Source of the DNA: Candidatus Microgenomates bacterium
Lineage (GTDB): Bacteria > Patescibacteriota > Microgenomatia > Levybacterales > UBA12049
DNA: 53,609 bases
NCBI GenBank assembly: GCA_025451195.1
Contig: JANWKV010000033.1
Coordinates: forward strand, 1-53,609
Reading direction: 5' to 3'
Part shown: positions 2,516-17,053 of the stretch, in pieces
How positions within the stretch are numbered: position 1 is the stretch's first letter
How the letters are laid out: the number at the start of each line of letters is the position of its first letter
Program-made: the position numbers and the translations under genes
Notes under the pieces: model-generated
Database searches by the model: none
The model's input: the letters and a program-made list of their open reading frames with translations, nothing else
What the model was told of the DNA's origin: nothing

Positions 2516-3330
2516 TAACGCCTTGATCTGTATTCCATATGGCCTGAATCAATTTTAGCCCTTATTAAATTTGTGTAATAGCTGATTCCTCGAGAAGCAA
2601 ATTGCTCAAATAAATCTCTCGATAAAAGTTTATTTCCTTGTTTTGAAAATACCGACTCTAATTGTTTTCTGGCATATTCCCATGCTTTTTCCTCAGACTC
2701 GATCAGATCAAACGCTTCATCATAATATACCCTTGCGTTTGGGTTATTCAATCTATCCAATATTCCCTCCGCAACTCTTATTGATTTGTCGTTTTCGTGT
2801 CCAATTTCGTGCAATACAACAAGAAGAGTTGCTGGTTTGTTAAGTTCTCCCAAAACCACAATGTCTCGCTTGAGAGACATTCTGTAGCTGCTTGAGCGTC
2901 CGCCATAATAATCTGGCAATTCCCTGACAAAAATTGGAGCATATTGCGGAACGATATTTTCCCCACCATTTATTGATAGGTAAGTGACATTGGAAAAAAT
3001 AGCAGATTCATCAATTTCGTGAAAGGGATACATTGTATTAAAATCACTAACAAATTGAGAATTTGTTTCTGCAGGTCTAACTTTTTTTATACCTAATATA
3101 AAATTTGATTCATCCTGATCTATTCTAATCCCATTTTCATTTCTAAAGATTTGTTTAAAAGGTTGGGCTAATTCGACCGGATAATCTTTAGGCGCGCCTT
3201 CGTACTTATGTAATTTTTGCTCCGTCTGATATTGATAATATCTAAACCACTTTATATATAGCTCTTTTATTGGTCTTCTTCTTTGATTGTTACCCTGATT
3301 ATTATTTGATTCTGGTGGTCGGGGTGTCAT
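2512..3330 (-). CDS. hypothetical protein with HExxH motif (putative metallopeptidase-like)
   Basis: ORF 272 aa; LLVVLHEIGHENDKSI. Confidence 0.6.
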   Translation of the reverse strand: MTPRPPESNNNQGNNQRRRPIKELYIKWFRYYQYQTEQKLHKYEGAPKDYPVELAQPFKQIFRNENGIRIDQDESNFILGIKKVRPAETNSQFVSDFNTMYPFHEIDESAIFSNVTYLSINGGENIVPQYAPIFVRELPDYYGGRSSSYRMSLKRDIVVLGELNKPATLLVVLHEIGHENDKSIRVAEGILDRLNNPNARVYYDEAFDLIESEEKAWEYARKQLESVFSKQGNKLLSRDLFEQFASRGISYYTNLIRAKIDSGHMEYRSRRY

Positions 3331-8985: not shown

Positions 8986-9014
8986 TTGACGAGCTATTAA
9001 ATACCTGATACAAT
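8986..9014 (+). promoter_or_regulatory. sigma70-type promoter of the ilvB operon
   Basis: TTGACG - 17 nt - TACAAT. Confidence 0.75.
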
Positions 9015-9023
9015 TACATAAAG

Positions 9024-9065
9024 ATGAAATCTTTAAATCTCGTTGTCCTTATTGTTGCTCGCTAA
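9024..9065 (+). CDS. ilv leader peptide MKSLNLVVLIVAR
   Basis: ATG...TAA 13 codons, 7 of them Leu/Val/Ile, followed immediately by mutually exclusive hairpins and a terminator. Confidence 0.8.
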   Translation: MKSLNLVVLIVAR

Positions 9066-9116
9066 AGCGGGTTGCAGTTGCATGGACAACTCACACCCGC
9101 GAAAGCGGGTTTTTTT
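9066..9116 (+). promoter_or_regulatory. attenuator: antiterminator arm 9067-9080 / 9087-9100, terminator 9095-9116
   Basis: GCGGGTTGCAGTTG can pair with CAACTCACACCCGC; ACCCGC-GAAA-GCGGGT followed by T7. Confidence 0.8.
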
Positions 9117-9124
9117 GTAGAAAA

Positions 9125-10959: not shown

Positions 10960-12651
10960 ATGGTAACTATTAGAACGTATACAATTATTATTTTTACAGA
11001 AAATAAACCAGGGGTATTAAACAGAATCTCCGATTTATTTTTGCGACGGAAAATCAATATAGAAAGTTTAACTGTTTCTGAAGTGCAAAAAGAAGGCGTT
11101 TCGAGATTTACCGTGGTTGTTAAAGTTGATAAAAACATGATTGAAAAAATTGTTAAGCAGCTTTACAGAATAATTGAAGTTTTGAAAGTCTTTGAAAATA
11201 CAGATAGCGATTTAATCTTTAAAGAAATTGCTTTTTTTAAAGTCGCAACAAAAACCCCGGATCAACGGCACGAGATAGAAGATTTAGCCTATCTTTTTAG
11301 GGCCAGAATAAATTTTGTCGGAAATGATTTTGTGGTTATTGAAAAAACTGGTTCGGAAGAAGAAATTAATTCTTTATATGCACTTTTGCGGCCTTTTAAC
11401 GTGCGGGAGTTTGTGCGTTCCGGAAGGATTGCGGTACTAAAAGAGGAAGCAAGATTTTCCGGTAAGTTTAATCCGACTCCAAAAGAGCCGGCAGACATGA
11501 CTTTAAATATTGATGTTTCAGCAATCAAAAAAATGCAGCTTATGGCATGGGATACAAAGGGCACAATTTCTTTGGCTCAGGGAATTCCATCATTTAATTC
11601 TGCAAAACATATAAGAGACGCTGCAAAAAAGGCAATTGATGAAAATCTGGTAGATAAATATACGGCAGGTAATGGAATTATAGAACTTCGTGAAGCTATT
11701 GTTGAAAAACTTGCTAGGGATAACAAAATGAAAGTAACAACAGACCAGATTATTGTAGCCCACGGCGCAATTGAGGCGTTAATGGCTGTATTTATGGCGC
11801 TTCTTAATCCAAGTGACGAAGTTTTGGTTTTAACGCCTGATTATGCATCACACATTACCCAAACAAGAATTGCACGGCATGGCGGCAGGCCAATTTTTGT
11901 GCCTTTAACAGAAACAGAAAAGGGCTGGGTTTTAGAAGCAGAAAAACTTGAGGCGTCAATTACTCAAAATACAAAAGCAATTCTTATTTGTAATCCCTGC
12001 AATCCGACAGGTAAGGTTTATTCAATAGAAGAATTAAAAGAAGTTGCCAGAATTTCAAATAAATATAATCTTTTTATCATAACAGATGAAATCTACGAAT
12101 ACTTTACGTTTGACGGCAAAAAGCATATAAGTATTGGGAGTTTGCCGGAAGTTAAAGATAGGGTTATCTCTATTTTTGGGATTTCCAAATCATACGCAAT
12201 GACGGGCTGGAGGATAGGTTATATTGTTGCAAATAAAAATCTTATTACTCAAATATTTAAAATTCATGATTCTCTAATAACTTGCCCAACGGCTGTTTCT
12301 CAATACGCTGCAATTGCCGCAATTAAAGGACGGCAAGATATAGTTGAAGAATACAAAAAAGCATTTGAAAAAAGGCGGGGAATTGTTGTGGAAGAGTTAA
12401 GTAAAACGAAAAAGTTGTTTTTGACCAGTAAACCGGAAGGTGCATATTATGCATTCCCGAAATTTGCCAAAGAAGTTGATGATTATGAAATAGCAGTCCG
12501 ACTTATCAGGGAAGCAAAAGTAGCAGTTGTTCCGGGTAGTGCGTTTGGTCTGGGCGGAGAAAACCATATCAGGATTTCATATGGTGGAGATGAGGAAGAA
12601 CTAAGAGAGGGAATGAGAAGAATTGTTAAGTTTGTTGAGAAGAATTGCTAA
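10960..12651 (+). CDS. fusion: acetolactate synthase small subunit (ACT, IlvN/IlvH-like; ~aa 1-165) + class I/II PLP aminotransferase (~aa 180-563)
   Basis: N-term TIIIFTENKPGVLNRISDLFLRRKINIESLTV...; C-term SLAQGIPSF..., CNPCNPTGKVYS, DEIYEYFTFDG, ISKSYAMTGWRIGY in one uninterrupted frame. Confidence 0.93.
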   Translation: MVTIRTYTIIIFTENKPGVLNRISDLFLRRKINIESLTVSEVQKEGVSRFTVVVKVDKNMIEKIVKQLYRIIEVLKVFENTDSDLIFKEIAFFKVATKTPDQRHEIEDLAYLFRARINFVGNDFVVIEKTGSEEEINSLYALLRPFNVREFVRSGRIAVLKEEARFSGKFNPTPKEPADMTLNIDVSAIKKMQLMAWDTKGTISLAQGIPSFNSAKHIRDAAKKAIDENLVDKYTAGNGIIELREAIVEKLARDNKMKVTTDQIIVAHGAIEALMAVFMALLNPSDEVLVLTPDYASHITQTRIARHGGRPIFVPLTETEKGWVLEAEKLEASITQNTKAILICNPCNPTGKVYSIEELKEVARISNKYNLFIITDEIYEYFTFDGKKHISIGSLPEVKDRVISIFGISKSYAMTGWRIGYIVANKNLITQIFKIHDSLITCPTAVSQYAAIAAIKGRQDIVEEYKKAFEKRRGIVVEELSKTKKLFLTSKPEGAYYAFPKFAKEVDDYEIAVRLIREAKVAVVPGSAFGLGGENHIRISYGGDEEELREGMRRIVKFVEKNC

Positions 12652-12687: not shown

Positions 12688-13734
12688 ATGAAAATGAATT
12701 TTGGAGGAGTTGAAGAAACAGTCGTAACTCGTGATGAATTTCCTTTGGAAAAAGCACGCAAAGTTTTAGAAAAAGAAACAATTGCTGTTATTGGATATGG
12801 TGTTCAAGGTCCGGCACAGGCACTTAATATGAGGGATAATGGTTTTAGCGTAATTGTTGGGCAACGAAAGGGTGGAAAAACATATCAAAAAGCAATTGAC
12901 GATGGATGGGTTGAAGGAGAAACACTTTTTGATATAGAAGAAGCAGTTAAGAAAGGGACAATTATTTGTTATTTACTTTCCGATGCTGCGCAAATTGAGC
13001 TATGGCCAACTGTTAAAAAGCATTTAACAAAAGGAAAGACAATTTATTTCTCACATGGTTTTGCTGTTACTTTTAAGGACAAAACAGGAATTATCCCTCC
13101 AAAAGACGTAGATGTTATTTTGGTTGCCCCAAAAGGGTCAGGCCGCACGGTCAGAAAACATTTCCTTGAAGGCCGTGGAATTAATTCCAGTTTTGCTGTT
13201 TTTCAAGACGCAACAGGTAAGGCGCAGGAAAAAGTCAGGGCAATGGGAGTAGGCGTTGGCTCAGGATTTTTATTCCCGACAACATTCCAAAAAGAAGTAT
13301 ATTCCGATTTAACAGGAGAAAGAGGAGTTTTGCTTGGTGCAATTGCAGGGCTTATGGAAGCACAGTACAATTTACTTCGCAAACACGGTCATAACCCGTC
13401 TGAGGCATTTAATGAAACAGTTGAAGAAGCAACACAAAGTTTAATCCCACTTATTGGGGAAAACGGAATGGACTGGATGTTTGCATGTTGTTCAACGACA
13501 GCGCAAAGGGGAGCACTCGACTGGAAACCGAAATTCAAAAAAGCAGTAGAGCCGGTGTTTGACGAACTTTACAAAAGCGTAGAGTCAGGAAACGAAGCGG
13601 AAATAACAATTAAGGCAAATAGTAAACCCGACTACAGGGAAGGCCTTAAAAAAGAATTAGACGCGATGAAAAATAGTGAAATGTGGAAAACCGGAGCAAA
13701 GGTTCGTGAACTCAGACCGGAAAATCAAAAATAG
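12688..13734 (+). CDS. ilvC: ketol-acid reductoisomerase
   Basis: IAVIGYGVQGPAQALNMRDNGFSVIVGQRKG, VAPKGSGRTVRKHFLEGRGINSSFAVFQD, SDLTGERGVLLGAIAG. Confidence 0.96.
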   Translation: MKMNFGGVEETVVTRDEFPLEKARKVLEKETIAVIGYGVQGPAQALNMRDNGFSVIVGQRKGGKTYQKAIDDGWVEGETLFDIEEAVKKGTIICYLLSDAAQIELWPTVKKHLTKGKTIYFSHGFAVTFKDKTGIIPPKDVDVILVAPKGSGRTVRKHFLEGRGINSSFAVFQDATGKAQEKVRAMGVGVGSGFLFPTTFQKEVYSDLTGERGVLLGAIAGLMEAQYNLLRKHGHNPSEAFNETVEEATQSLIPLIGENGMDWMFACCSTTAQRGALDWKPKFKKAVEPVFDELYKSVESGNEAEITIKANSKPDYREGLKKELDAMKNSEMWKTGAKVRELRPENQK

Positions 13735-13763
13735 TTGACGGATAAAGGATATTTTGCTAACAT
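13735..13763 (+). promoter_or_regulatory. promoter for ilvA transcription unit
   Basis: TTGACG - 17 nt - TAACAT, directly after the ilvC stop codon. Confidence 0.7.
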
Positions 13764-13769
13764 AGCTAT

Positions 13770-13817
13770 ATGAAATCGATTTTTGCAGGAATTATTAATA
13801 TTATTACTACTCGCTAA
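13770..13817 (+). CDS. ilvA leader peptide MKSIFAGIINIITTR
   Basis: 15 codons, 5 Ile and 2 Thr, followed by antiterminator/terminator. Confidence 0.8.
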   Translation: MKSIFAGIINIITTR

Positions 13818-13868
13818 CGCGGGTTTGATTCCTGTGAAATCAACGCCCGCCAAGAAGCGGGTTTTTTT
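13818..13868 (+). promoter_or_regulatory. attenuator: antiterminator arms 13818-13830 / 13837-13850; terminator 13846-13868
   Basis: GCGGGTTTGATT pairs imperfectly with AAATCAACGCCCGC; CCCGC-CAAGAA-GCGGG followed by T7. Confidence 0.8.
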
Positions 13869-13929
13869 GTAGTTTATTCTCCATAGCTAAAGCTATGAAG
13901 GGTTCAGCCCTCATCGGGCTTGAAAAAAT

Positions 13930-15243
13930 ATGAAACAAAAAATAACCCAACGGCTGACTCAGGGTAAACAAAATATGAAAATAACTGTAAAAATGATTGA
14001 AGAAGCAAGAGAGCGGCTTGGAAAAGTTGTTGCAAAAACTCCTTTACAATATTCAAAACGCCTTTCGGAGAGATATGGTGCAAAAATATATTTAAAACGG
14101 GAAGACCTACAGGAAGTCCGTTCTTTCAAAATCCGCGGAGCCTACAATAAAATGTCCACCTTAACTCCTGAAGAAAAAAAACGCGGAGTTGTTTGTGCTT
14201 CTGCCGGAAACCATGCACAGGGAGTTGCTCTTTCATGTTCGCTCCTCAAAATTAATGGAGTTATATTTATGCCAACAATCACCCCTTTGCAAAAAATAGA
14301 CAGAGTAAAACATTTTGGAGATGGTTTTGTAACGATTAAACTTGTCGGGACAACTTACGATGATGCAAGCATGGCATCAAAAGAATATTGTCACGAAAAA
14401 GATATGGTTTATGTTCATCCATTCAACGATCCTCTAACTGTTGCAGGTCAAGGGACAATCGGTAAAGAAATATACGAAGATATAGATGGGGATTTAGATG
14501 TTGTTGTTTGTGCAATTGGTGGTGGAGGATTAATTTCCGGGGTTTCTTCATACTTAAAACAAAAATCCGCTCCGCCAGCTGGCGGACGACGGACCAAAGT
14601 AAAAGTTTATGGAGCCGAGCCAATGGGTAGTCCTTCCATGGTTGAGTCTTTGAAAAAAGGAAAACCTGTAAAAATAGAAAAAATAGAGACATTTGTAGAC
14701 GGAGCTGCTGTACAAATGCCAGGCGAGTTAACAGTTGAAATTTGCAAACAAAATGTGGAAGATATTTTTTTGGTGCCGGAGGGAAAGATTTGTACAACAA
14801 TGGTTGAGCTTTACCAAAACGAAGGAATAATTGCAGAGCCGGCAGGAGCATTAAGTGTTTCTGCGCTTCACTTTCTTAAAGACAAAATAAAAGGGAAAAC
14901 TGTTGTTTGCGTATTGAGTGGAGGGAATAATGATATTTTAAGATATCCCGAAGTTATGGAAAGAAGCTTGGTCTGGCAGGGGAGAAAACATTATTTTCTG
15001 GTTGAATTTGCACAAAAGCCCGGTCAACTTCGTAATTTTTTAGATAAAGCAATAGGACCAACTGATGATATTGTAAGATTTGAATATGTAAAGAGGACCA
15101 GTAAAGAAAAAGGGGCTGCGCTGGTTGGCATAGAACTTCAGAGTAAAGAAAATTTACAACCGCTTTTGGAAAAAATGAAAGAAATAGAATTAAAATTCAG
15201 AATACTTACACCTGATGATTTGTTGTACCAGTATTTGATATAA
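13930..15243 (+). CDS. ilvA: threonine ammonia-lyase (start possibly 13975, MKITVKMIEEARERLG)
   Basis: LKREDLQEVRSFKIRGAYNKM, CASAGNHAQGVALSC, GGGGLISGVSSYLKQ, LSGGNNDI; C-terminal regulatory domain. Confidence 0.95.
   Translation: MKQKITQRLTQGKQNMKITVKMIEEARERLGKVVAKTPLQYSKRLSERYGAKIYLKREDLQEVRSFKIRGAYNKMSTLTPEEKKRGVVCASAGNHAQGVALSCSLLKINGVIFMPTITPLQKIDRVKHFGDGFVTIKLVGTTYDDASMASKEYCHEKDMVYVHPFNDPLTVAGQGTIGKEIYEDIDGDLDVVVCAIGGGGLISGVSSYLKQKSAPPAGGRRTKVKVYGAEPMGSPSMVESLKKGKPVKIEKIETFVDGAAVQMPGELTVEICKQNVEDIFLVPEGKICTTMVELYQNEGIIAEPAGALSVSALHFLKDKIKGKTVVCVLSGGNNDILRYPEVMERSLVWQGRKHYFLVEFAQKPGQLRNFLDKAIGPTDDIVRFEYVKRTSKEKGAALVGIELQSKENLQPLLEKMKEIELKFRILTPDDLLYQYLI
14571..14586. repeat. perfect palindrome TCCGCCAGCTGGCGGA inside ilvA
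   Basis: Self-complementary 16-mer, extended by outer TCCG...CGGA arms. Confidence 0.9.
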
Positions 15244-15271: not shown

Positions 15272-17053
15272 ATGAAGAATAACAAAAATTGTGACTGCGA
15301 ACATTGTGCATGTGATGATTCCGGAGAATCATCAGACACTTCTTTGCTCCGTCAAAAAAGCGCAACTCTCACAGGTAATCAGGAAGATAAAAAAAATTGG
15401 GCAAAAAGGGCTCCTGCCAGGGCGATGATGCGGGGCGTTGGTTTTAAAGACGAAGATTTTAAAAAGCCTCTTGTAACTCTTGCCGTCCCTTATACAAACA
15501 TAACTCCTTGTAATGGCCATATAAGAGAATTGGGTGATATCTGTTTTGAGGAAATAGAAAAAAACGGGGGAAAACCCATTATATTTGGTACACCTGTTAT
15601 TTCCGACGGGGAAACAATGGGAACAGAAGGAATGAAATATTCTTTGGTCTCCCGAGAGCTTATTGCGGATTGTATTGAAGCAATGCATGAAGGATACATG
15701 GCCGATGGAATTTTAACGCTTAGCGGTTGTGATAAAACAATTCCTGCCGCACTTATTCCTTTGGCGCGAAATAATAGCATTGGTCTTACTTTATACGGAG
15801 GAACAATTTTGCCTGGAAAACTGCACGGAAAAGATTTAACTGTCGTAAGTATTTTTGAAGCGGTTGGCCAGCATGCCGCGGGTAAAATTGATGACAAAGA
15901 GTTGTACGATGTTGAATGTAATAGTTGTCCTGGTAATGGAAGTTGTGGGGGAATGTATACCGCAAACACAATGGCACTGGCAATTGAAGCAATGGGAATG
16001 AGTATTCCAGGGAGTTCGAGTAACCCCGCGGTTGATACTCAAAATAAAGTATCCGCCTACAAAAGATTGGATTGCATAGATTCTGTTAAGGCTTTGTTTA
16101 ATTTATTAAAAAGAGGAATCCATGCTCGGGATATTATGACCCGCGAAGCATTCGAGAATGCAATCACAATTATTATGGCTTTAAACGGATCAACAAACGC
16201 GATACTGCATTTACTTTCTCTTGCGCATGAAGCCAAGGTTAAATTATCTATAGATGATTTTGAAAGAATTGCCGCTAGAGTTCCGTTAATTGGAGATTTT
16301 AAACCATCTGGTAAATATGTTATGGAGGATTTATTTAAAATAGGAGGCAGTAAAATGGTTTTCAAACTTTTACTGGACGCTAGACTTTTGCATGGAGATT
16401 GTTTGACAGTAACCGGCAAAACATTGGCAGAAAACCTAAAAGACGCTCCGAGTTTTCCTAAAAACCAGGATATTATTTATACGCTTGAAAAACCCTTAGC
16501 ACCTCCTGAACATCATTTGATAATAATGAGGGGAAATTTGGCGCCAGATGGGGCGGTTATGAAACTATCCGGTAAAGAAATAGAAGTGCATAATGGCAAC
16601 GCACGCGTTTTTGAATCGGAAGAAAATGCACTTGACGCAATCTTGCAAGGAAAAATTAATAAAGGAGATGTTATTATCATCCGTTACGAAGGGCCAAAGG
16701 GAGGCCCTGGTATGCGGGAAATGTTGTCACCATCTTCTGCTTTAATGGGGGCAGGTCTTGGTAAAGATGTTGCGCTTATTACAGACGGCAGGTTTAGCGG
16801 CGGAACACACGGATTTATGATTGGGCATGTGACACCTGAGGCACAAGACGGAGGGGTTATAGCAGTTGTAGAAGAAGGAGATAAGATTGAAATCAGCAGG
16901 TCAAAACGTACAATAAATGTTTTACTCTCCGAAGAAGAAATTGCAAACAGGCTTTCCAAATGGAAGGCGCCAGAACCAAGGTATAAAAGGGGAATATTGG
17001 CAAAATACGCAAAACTTGTAAGCAGTGCATCTAAAGGTGCGGTAACTTCATAA
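15272..17053 (+). CDS. ilvD: dihydroxy-acid dehydratase with Cys-rich N-terminal extension
   Basis: CNGHIRELGD, GTPVISDGETMGTEGMKYSLVSRELIADCIE, SGCDKTIPAALIPLAR, CPGNGSCGGMYTANTMA. Confidence 0.96.
   Translation: MKNNKNCDCEHCACDDSGESSDTSLLRQKSATLTGNQEDKKNWAKRAPARAMMRGVGFKDEDFKKPLVTLAVPYTNITPCNGHIRELGDICFEEIEKNGGKPIIFGTPVISDGETMGTEGMKYSLVSRELIADCIEAMHEGYMADGILTLSGCDKTIPAALIPLARNNSIGLTLYGGTILPGKLHGKDLTVVSIFEAVGQHAAGKIDDKELYDVECNSCPGNGSCGGMYTANTMALAIEAMGMSIPGSSSNPAVDTQNKVSAYKRLDCIDSVKALFNLLKRGIHARDIMTREAFENAITIIMALNGSTNAILHLLSLAHEAKVKLSIDDFERIAARVPLIGDFKPSGKYVMEDLFKIGGSKMVFKLLLDARLLHGDCLTVTGKTLAENLKDAPSFPKNQDIIYTLEKPLAPPEHHLIIMRGNLAPDGAVMKLSGKEIEVHNGNARVFESEENALDAILQGKINKGDVIIIRYEGPKGGPGMREMLSPSSALMGAGLGKDVALITDGRFSGGTHGFMIGHVTPEAQDGGVIAVVEEGDKIEISRSKRTINVLLSEEEIANRLSKWKAPEPRYKRGILAKYAKLVSSASKGAVTS

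Follow-up and report, generated by a model that had tools for sequence, protein, structure and literature searches.

Analysis of a 53,609-nucleotide stretch of DNA (the window) from the draft genome of a CPR (Patescibacteria) bacterium, G000 (1.17 Mb in 62 contigs), points with high confidence to a ribosome-mediated transcription attenuator with its own promoter, through which the charging of tRNA-Ile controls ilvA and probably also ilvD. The region lies at positions 13735..13868 of the forward strand (+), as do all features of the window described below, and combines a promoter, a short leader-peptide ORF, an antiterminator stem and a terminator stem, of which the last two cannot form together. 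All of these elements occur where a sequence-only reading of this DNA had placed them, and eight orthologous leaders, together with folding of the RNA at successive ribosome positions, support its proposals of an attenuator, of a codon content that fits ilvA and of a predicted leaderless start.

The ilvA leader and its distribution

The attenuator is the second of two in a cluster with the gene order attenuator-ilvB, AHAS small-subunit/aminotransferase fusion, ilvC, attenuator-ilvA, ilvD. Its promoter (13735..13763) begins with the -35 box TTGACG (13735-13740), directly 3' of the stop codon of the upstream neighbor ilvC (ketol-acid reductoisomerase; 12688..13734), which has a -10-like TATAAT 7 nt ahead of its own ATG. 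A 17-nt spacer leads to the -10 box TAACAT (13758-13763), preceded by a TG and followed after 6 nt by the ATG of the leader at 13770, the predicted transcription start. The leader ORF (13770..13817), predicted to be leaderless, encodes MKSIFAGIINIITTR followed by a stop codon, with five Ile codons, all ATT, and two Thr codons. Within it lie the sensing codons Ile8-Ile9-Asn10-Ile11-Ile12-Thr13 (13791..13808), where a ribosome A site frees strand 2, and strand 1, ACTCGC (the Thr14-Arg15 codons; 13809..13814). Beyond the ORF come strand 2, GCGGGTTTGATT (13819..13830), which forms the antiterminator when paired with strand 3 (13838..13850), and the intrinsic terminator GCCCGC-CAAGAA-GCGGGT with its T-run (13845..13868; hairpin 13845-13862, T-run to 13868), whose 5' arm is the shared segment 13845-13850 of strand 3.

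The gene downstream of this Ile-rich leader is a biosynthetic one, as befits an attenuator: ilvA, coding for threonine ammonia-lyase (13930..15243; NF006390 and TIGR02079, NCBIfam models over the cut-off). Homology of its product starts at about 13975, and the gene start is either 13930 or 13975. It is followed after 28 nt by ilvD (dihydroxy-acid dehydratase; 15272..17053), which is probably under the same attenuator. The first attenuator of the cluster, upstream of ilvB (8986..9117), has the promoter TTGACG-17-TACAAT, the leader peptide MKSLNLVVLIVAR ending in a stop codon (9024-9065) and a terminator at 9095-9110 with a T-run. Between ilvB and ilvC, a single 563-aa ORF (10960-12651) fuses an acetolactate synthase small subunit (ACT and ALS_ss_C domains) to a class I/II aminotransferase.

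We surveyed 73 genomes of the same family, 15 of which carry ilvA, and found an Ile-rich attenuator directly 5' of ilvA in eight of the latter; in the other seven ilvA stands close behind a same-direction gene that is ilv or leu by sequence. The eight leader peptides are MKSIFAGIINIITTR, MNMKFAGIIGIIITR, MVVQLKLRIFIAISTR, MNKNQIITITTIPS, MKKFSSIQIISIISIMES (with a GTG start), MNKKLIIAITTTLL, MLIKKAQIIINIITP and MKIQKITIIDFITS. Ile is kept in all eight and Thr in seven, and the comparison across relatives therefore did not refute the sequence-only reading, which had named a lack of Ile conservation as grounds for doing so. Most of these leaders adjoin an upstream gene other than ilvC. The family's ilvB genes have a leader immediately upstream in 11 of 14 cases and farther upstream in two more (G020 and G050), the remaining match being G046, and beyond the family V/L/I-rich leaders also begin operons, ilvB operons among them, in several further families of this class. 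The same scan applied to 74 ilvA loci, mostly from other phyla, gave two matches.

Alternative pairings, ribosome position and codon content

The whole ilvA leader folds with a z-score of -3.6, and its antiterminator pairs 13819-13830 with 13838-13843 and 13845-13850 (-14.4 kcal/mol, z -2.9). This much of the previously proposed pairing scheme is real, but that scheme had overlooked a third arrangement: in the minimum-energy fold strand 1 (13809-13814) pairs with 13819-13824 while 13778-13794 pairs with 13826-13841, and the terminator stays free. The antiterminator region is thereby bound by leader codons, and RNA that is not being translated is predicted to terminate. The same three alternatives are open to the ilvB leader of the window. 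A covariance model attempted on 17 leaders gave no common pair with RNAalifold because the stems vary in both sequence and position, and we therefore compared each leader's own strands with strands swapped between loci. Complementarity of strands 2:3 and 3:4 proved locus-specific (0/5000 permutations each, phylogeny ignored), and that of strands 1:2 more weakly so (74/5000 permutations overall and 13/5000 for the ilvA leaders, phylogeny again ignored).

To follow the ribosome we folded each leader with a ribosome on every codon, the RNA being covered to 13 nt beyond the first A-site base, an edge assumed from E. coli-type ribosomes, and recorded whether strand 3 was occupied before strand 4 was synthesized. 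In the ilvA leader the paired probability of strand 3 was 0.99 with the ribosome on the Ile codons, 0.25 with it at the stop codon and 0.02 with no ribosome, and this stall/finish switch was matched by 1/100 spacer shuffles. For 34 leaders, drawn from ilvA and ilvB-type operons, the mean switch was 0.64 versus 0.07 in shuffles; 29 of them switched beyond their shuffles (at most 5/100 shuffles as good), and one of the 11 ilvB leaders (L039) gave no switch in this folding. The flip from antiterminator to terminator falls mostly 2-4 codons ahead of the stop, just 3' of the Ile codons, and in the ilvA leader it sits between Thr13 and Arg15. The codons are placed as the mechanism demands: strand 2 stays free while the ribosome is stalled and is covered once it has finished, and the modeled ensembles would favor the antiterminator in the first state and the terminator in the second. 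At equilibrium with the whole terminator present, a stall at Ile11-Ile12 still favors the terminator, so for those codons the antiterminator must form first.

These results suggest the following course of events. RNA polymerase would begin the leader RNA with the A of its ATG or with an adjacent nucleotide, and the bare 5' end would be loaded with a ribosome. When Ile-tRNA is short, the ribosome would stall at Ile8-Ile12 and keep strand 1 unpaired; strand 2 (13819-13830) could then pair with strand 3, blocking the terminator and allowing transcription of ilvA. When Ile-tRNA is ample, the ribosome would reach the stop codon and cover strand 2, whereupon strand 3 would pair with 13857-13862 and transcription would stop at the T-run. 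Were no ribosome loaded, strand 2 and the RNA beyond it would be bound by the leader codons, again leading to termination.

The Ile content of the leaders also exceeds chance. Five Ile in 14 codons has p ~0.006 at the Ile frequency of the window, and for the eight orthologous leaders pooled (37/113 Ile) p is ~1e-12. Taking as the sensing window the last five codons ahead of the switch point, which in the ilvA leader read I-N-I-I-T, we obtained frequencies of I 0.53, T 0.20, V 0 and L 0 for the ilvA leaders versus I 0.35, L 0.22, V 0.27 and T 0 for the ilvB leaders. Thr occurs in the sensing window at 4/8 ilvA and 0/11 ilvB loci (p 0.018), the near-end Thr of the ilvB leaders falling 3' of the switch point, within strand 1. 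As Thr13 of the ilvA leader lies inside its sensing window, a shortage of Thr might contribute to the control of ilvA. The ilvB leaders hold 3-6 Ile in five genomes where ilvA is part of the ilvB cluster and has no leader of its own, and 1-2 Ile in five genomes with a separately led ilvA (p 0.009 between the groups, with a smaller effective n since two of the first five genomes share one genus). The idea that the leaders were retuned by codon content is thus supported both by the differing sensing windows and by an Ile count in the ilvB leaders that follows the make-up of the operon.

The start of the leader and rival explanations

The gap between the -10 box and the start codon is 6-7 nt in 8/8 family ilvA leaders (judged by eye in L009 and L013, where the script had chosen another equal-scoring box), and from this constancy leaderless translation is predicted. 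In the family's ilvB leaders it is 6-7 nt in 6/11 and 9-17 nt in the rest, and in leaders of other families 8-14 nt. None of 21 family leaders has an SD-like motif upstream. In the window at large, a near-consensus TATAAT stands exactly 6 nt ahead of the ATG in 11 of 47 ORFs, versus about one per position elsewhere, and an SD-like motif precedes just 2 of the 47; leaderless genes therefore look common here, and the ilvA leader fits the rule. Leaderless translation looks like a main mode in this lineage.

These observations also weigh on the possibility that the attenuator works without a leaderless start, on RNA reading through from ilvC, whose ribosomes would re-initiate at the leader ATG, 36 nt 3' of the ilvC stop. 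It is true that ilvC is co-oriented with the leader, with 13734 as its last base, and termination-reinitiation can span such a distance. We nevertheless regard this as improbable, given the absence of an SD-like motif and a 6-7 nt spacing that recurs in each of the eight ilvA leaders, the majority of which stand behind unrelated genes.

We give scarcely any credence to a ribosome-independent RNA sensor, either a T-box or a metabolite riboswitch, running the terminator with the ORF as an incidental passenger. Weakly scoring T-box-like elements before trpE in the source genome and its relatives lend this some color, but a covariance-model search of the ilvA leader against Rfam, including the T-box family RF00230, found nothing at the gathering threshold. 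Only 75 nt separate the start codon from the terminator, and the codon content of the leaders tracks the downstream gene. The best-scoring leader families in Rfam were Phe_leader (17.3 bits, threshold 55), Leu_leader (15.8, threshold 50) and Trp_leader (14, threshold 41), and we dropped a T-box or riboswitch identity for this leader since it has no Rfam match. Equally implausible is the view that the ilvC unit simply has its 3' terminator here, with an ordinary promoter region for ilvA behind it and a short ORF that arose by chance: the hairpin does lie 110 nt 3' of the ilvC stop, and in this A+T-rich genome 5 of 368 window ORFs of 10-22 aa have at least five Ile, but the promoter precedes the terminator rather than following it, and eight genomes, mostly with a neighbor other than ilvC, share the ORF, its Ile codons, the distance from the -10 box to the start codon and the alternative stems.

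Related attenuators, origin and known systems

The ribosome-mediated attenuator upstream of ilvA has counterparts elsewhere in the lineage. A third attenuator of G000, with the leader MKSANIVLTTTTTPF, precedes an aspartokinase-like gene (contig G000:C17, upstream of 4297; L239 ~1390-1590). It has a leaderless-type promoter, TTGACA-17-TATCAT with a 7-nt gap to the start codon, and a terminator, GACCTCCGCAAGGAGGTT, with a T-run; in ribosome-position folding it switches just after its run of Thr codons. In relatives, aspartokinase leaders carry runs of Lys (MNIQIVSLLKRTKKQPF..., MEFRLILNKKKLPF..., MKNQNLVLLSMTKKNLL...) and trpE leaders carry pairs of Trp (...IWQSWHTLK..., ...AAWWNLSKRG), with the predicted switch within a few codons after these; such loci in other Microgenomatia stand at the heads of aspartokinase (L242, L247 and L254) and trpE (L222, L224 and L233) operons. 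The trpE of the source genome itself is instead preceded by a T-box-like element of 21 bits, and relatives give T-box-like matches of up to 32 bits (E 0.0007), the threshold being 93 bits. The sub-threshold matches before trpE (L234 at 2835-3056 on the - strand, L231, L232 and L226) show a GGTGGCAACGCG/GGTGGCACC-like motif and a terminator, and are possibly divergent CPR T-boxes. In one family, f25, longer BCAA leaders upstream of ilvD-ilvB (L212, L218 and L219, ending in ..IGQGFTWEA.., ..IGQGFSWEA.. and ..IGRGNFWEA..) differ in layout, their strand-2 sequence GGGAGGC being part of the reading frame. At threonine synthase loci no attenuator was found near the match, and most of these matches begin inside the gene.

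Tentatively, and with rather more doubt than assurance, these leaders could be seen as a series of codon-swappable leaderless attenuators in Microgenomatia, serving Ile, Ile/Val/Leu, Thr, Lys and Trp, with the ilvA copy responsive to Ile only from its own promoter; read-through RNA would terminate by default because the leader ATG there is not at the 5' end.

The origin of the ilvA copy had been ascribed to duplication of the ilvB leader. The leaders do not bear this out: ilvA-ilvB identity is 0.66 within a genome versus 0.65 across genomes, and the ilvA leader of the window is closest to that of the sister genome G024 (0.82) rather than to its own ilvB leader (0.74). A recent ilvB-to-ilvA duplication accordingly finds no support in leader similarity. 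The Arg-stop ending shared by the two leaders is probably imposed by the pairing of strands 1 and 2 (CGC-TAA-GCG), and so is no independent evidence of descent.

A different resemblance is seen 3' of the terminator, where 13869..13907 has 82% identity to G000:C17:4210-4248, just 3' of the aspartokinase attenuator. The alignment extends to the gene start with a score of 101 (shuffle maximum 57). Homology of the two attenuators themselves was not supported, the attenuator part alone scoring 33, near the shuffle mean of 31 for the longer region. By alignment, then, the DNA 3' of the terminator is common to the ilvA and aspartokinase leaders, with no such signal in the attenuators. The ~106 nt between the terminator and the conserved IlvA start (13869-13974) are absent from G024 before ilvA, and no copies of the shared stretch were found in viral contigs.

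To our knowledge, how CPR bacteria regulate their genes has hardly been studied because nearly all of them are uncultured, and a literature search, with subscription papers and preprints mostly outside it, found no papers on attenuators in these bacteria. A conserved attenuator series that needs a ribosome behind RNA polymerase would imply coupled transcription and translation in reduced CPR genomes, as well as amino-acid-responsive control. A natural comparison is offered by ilvB leaders whose operon includes ilvA and those whose operon lacks it, and in it codon content follows gene content. As the leaders are ~100 nt long and predicted to be leaderless, they can be tested as cell-free DNA templates with no need to cultivate the host.

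The 1:2, 2:3 and 3:4 strand logic found here is that of the enterobacterial ilvGMEDA, ilvBN and thrABC attenuators, and the enterobacterial thr leader likewise mixes Thr and Ile codons. The leader ORFs of these systems are SD-led, unlike the predicted leaderless ilvA leader, and as far as we know enterobacterial ilvA lies inside the ilvGMEDA operon and has no attenuator of its own. Streptomyces lividans, of a different phylum, likewise has a single genome with leaderless leader peptides that serve several amino acids (IlvL, LeuL, TrpL and ThrL); there ThrL precedes thrS and IlvL precedes ilvBHC, and no ilvA-specific leader is reported (PMC8079986). The 5' end of the attenuator RNA coincides with the ATG of the leader peptide in Sinorhizobium meliloti trpL, as is predicted here, though that system uses Trp codons ahead of trpE(G) and its peptide also acts in trans (PMC7298713). 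Also comparable is the ilvBNC attenuator of Corynebacterium glutamicum, with a BCAA-codon leader peptide (MTIIRLVVVTARRLP), a terminator/antiterminator switch, a start codon one nucleotide from the transcription start and no ribosome binding site; this actinobacterial leader of 292 bp uses Ile, Val and Leu codons, whereas the CPR leader of ~100 nt before ilvA(-ilvD) uses Ile (and Thr) only (PMC11857589). Classical attenuation and leaderless leader peptides are thus already known, and what is new is the lineage, the target, with its ilvA-specific Ile(/Thr) code, and the evolutionary pattern.
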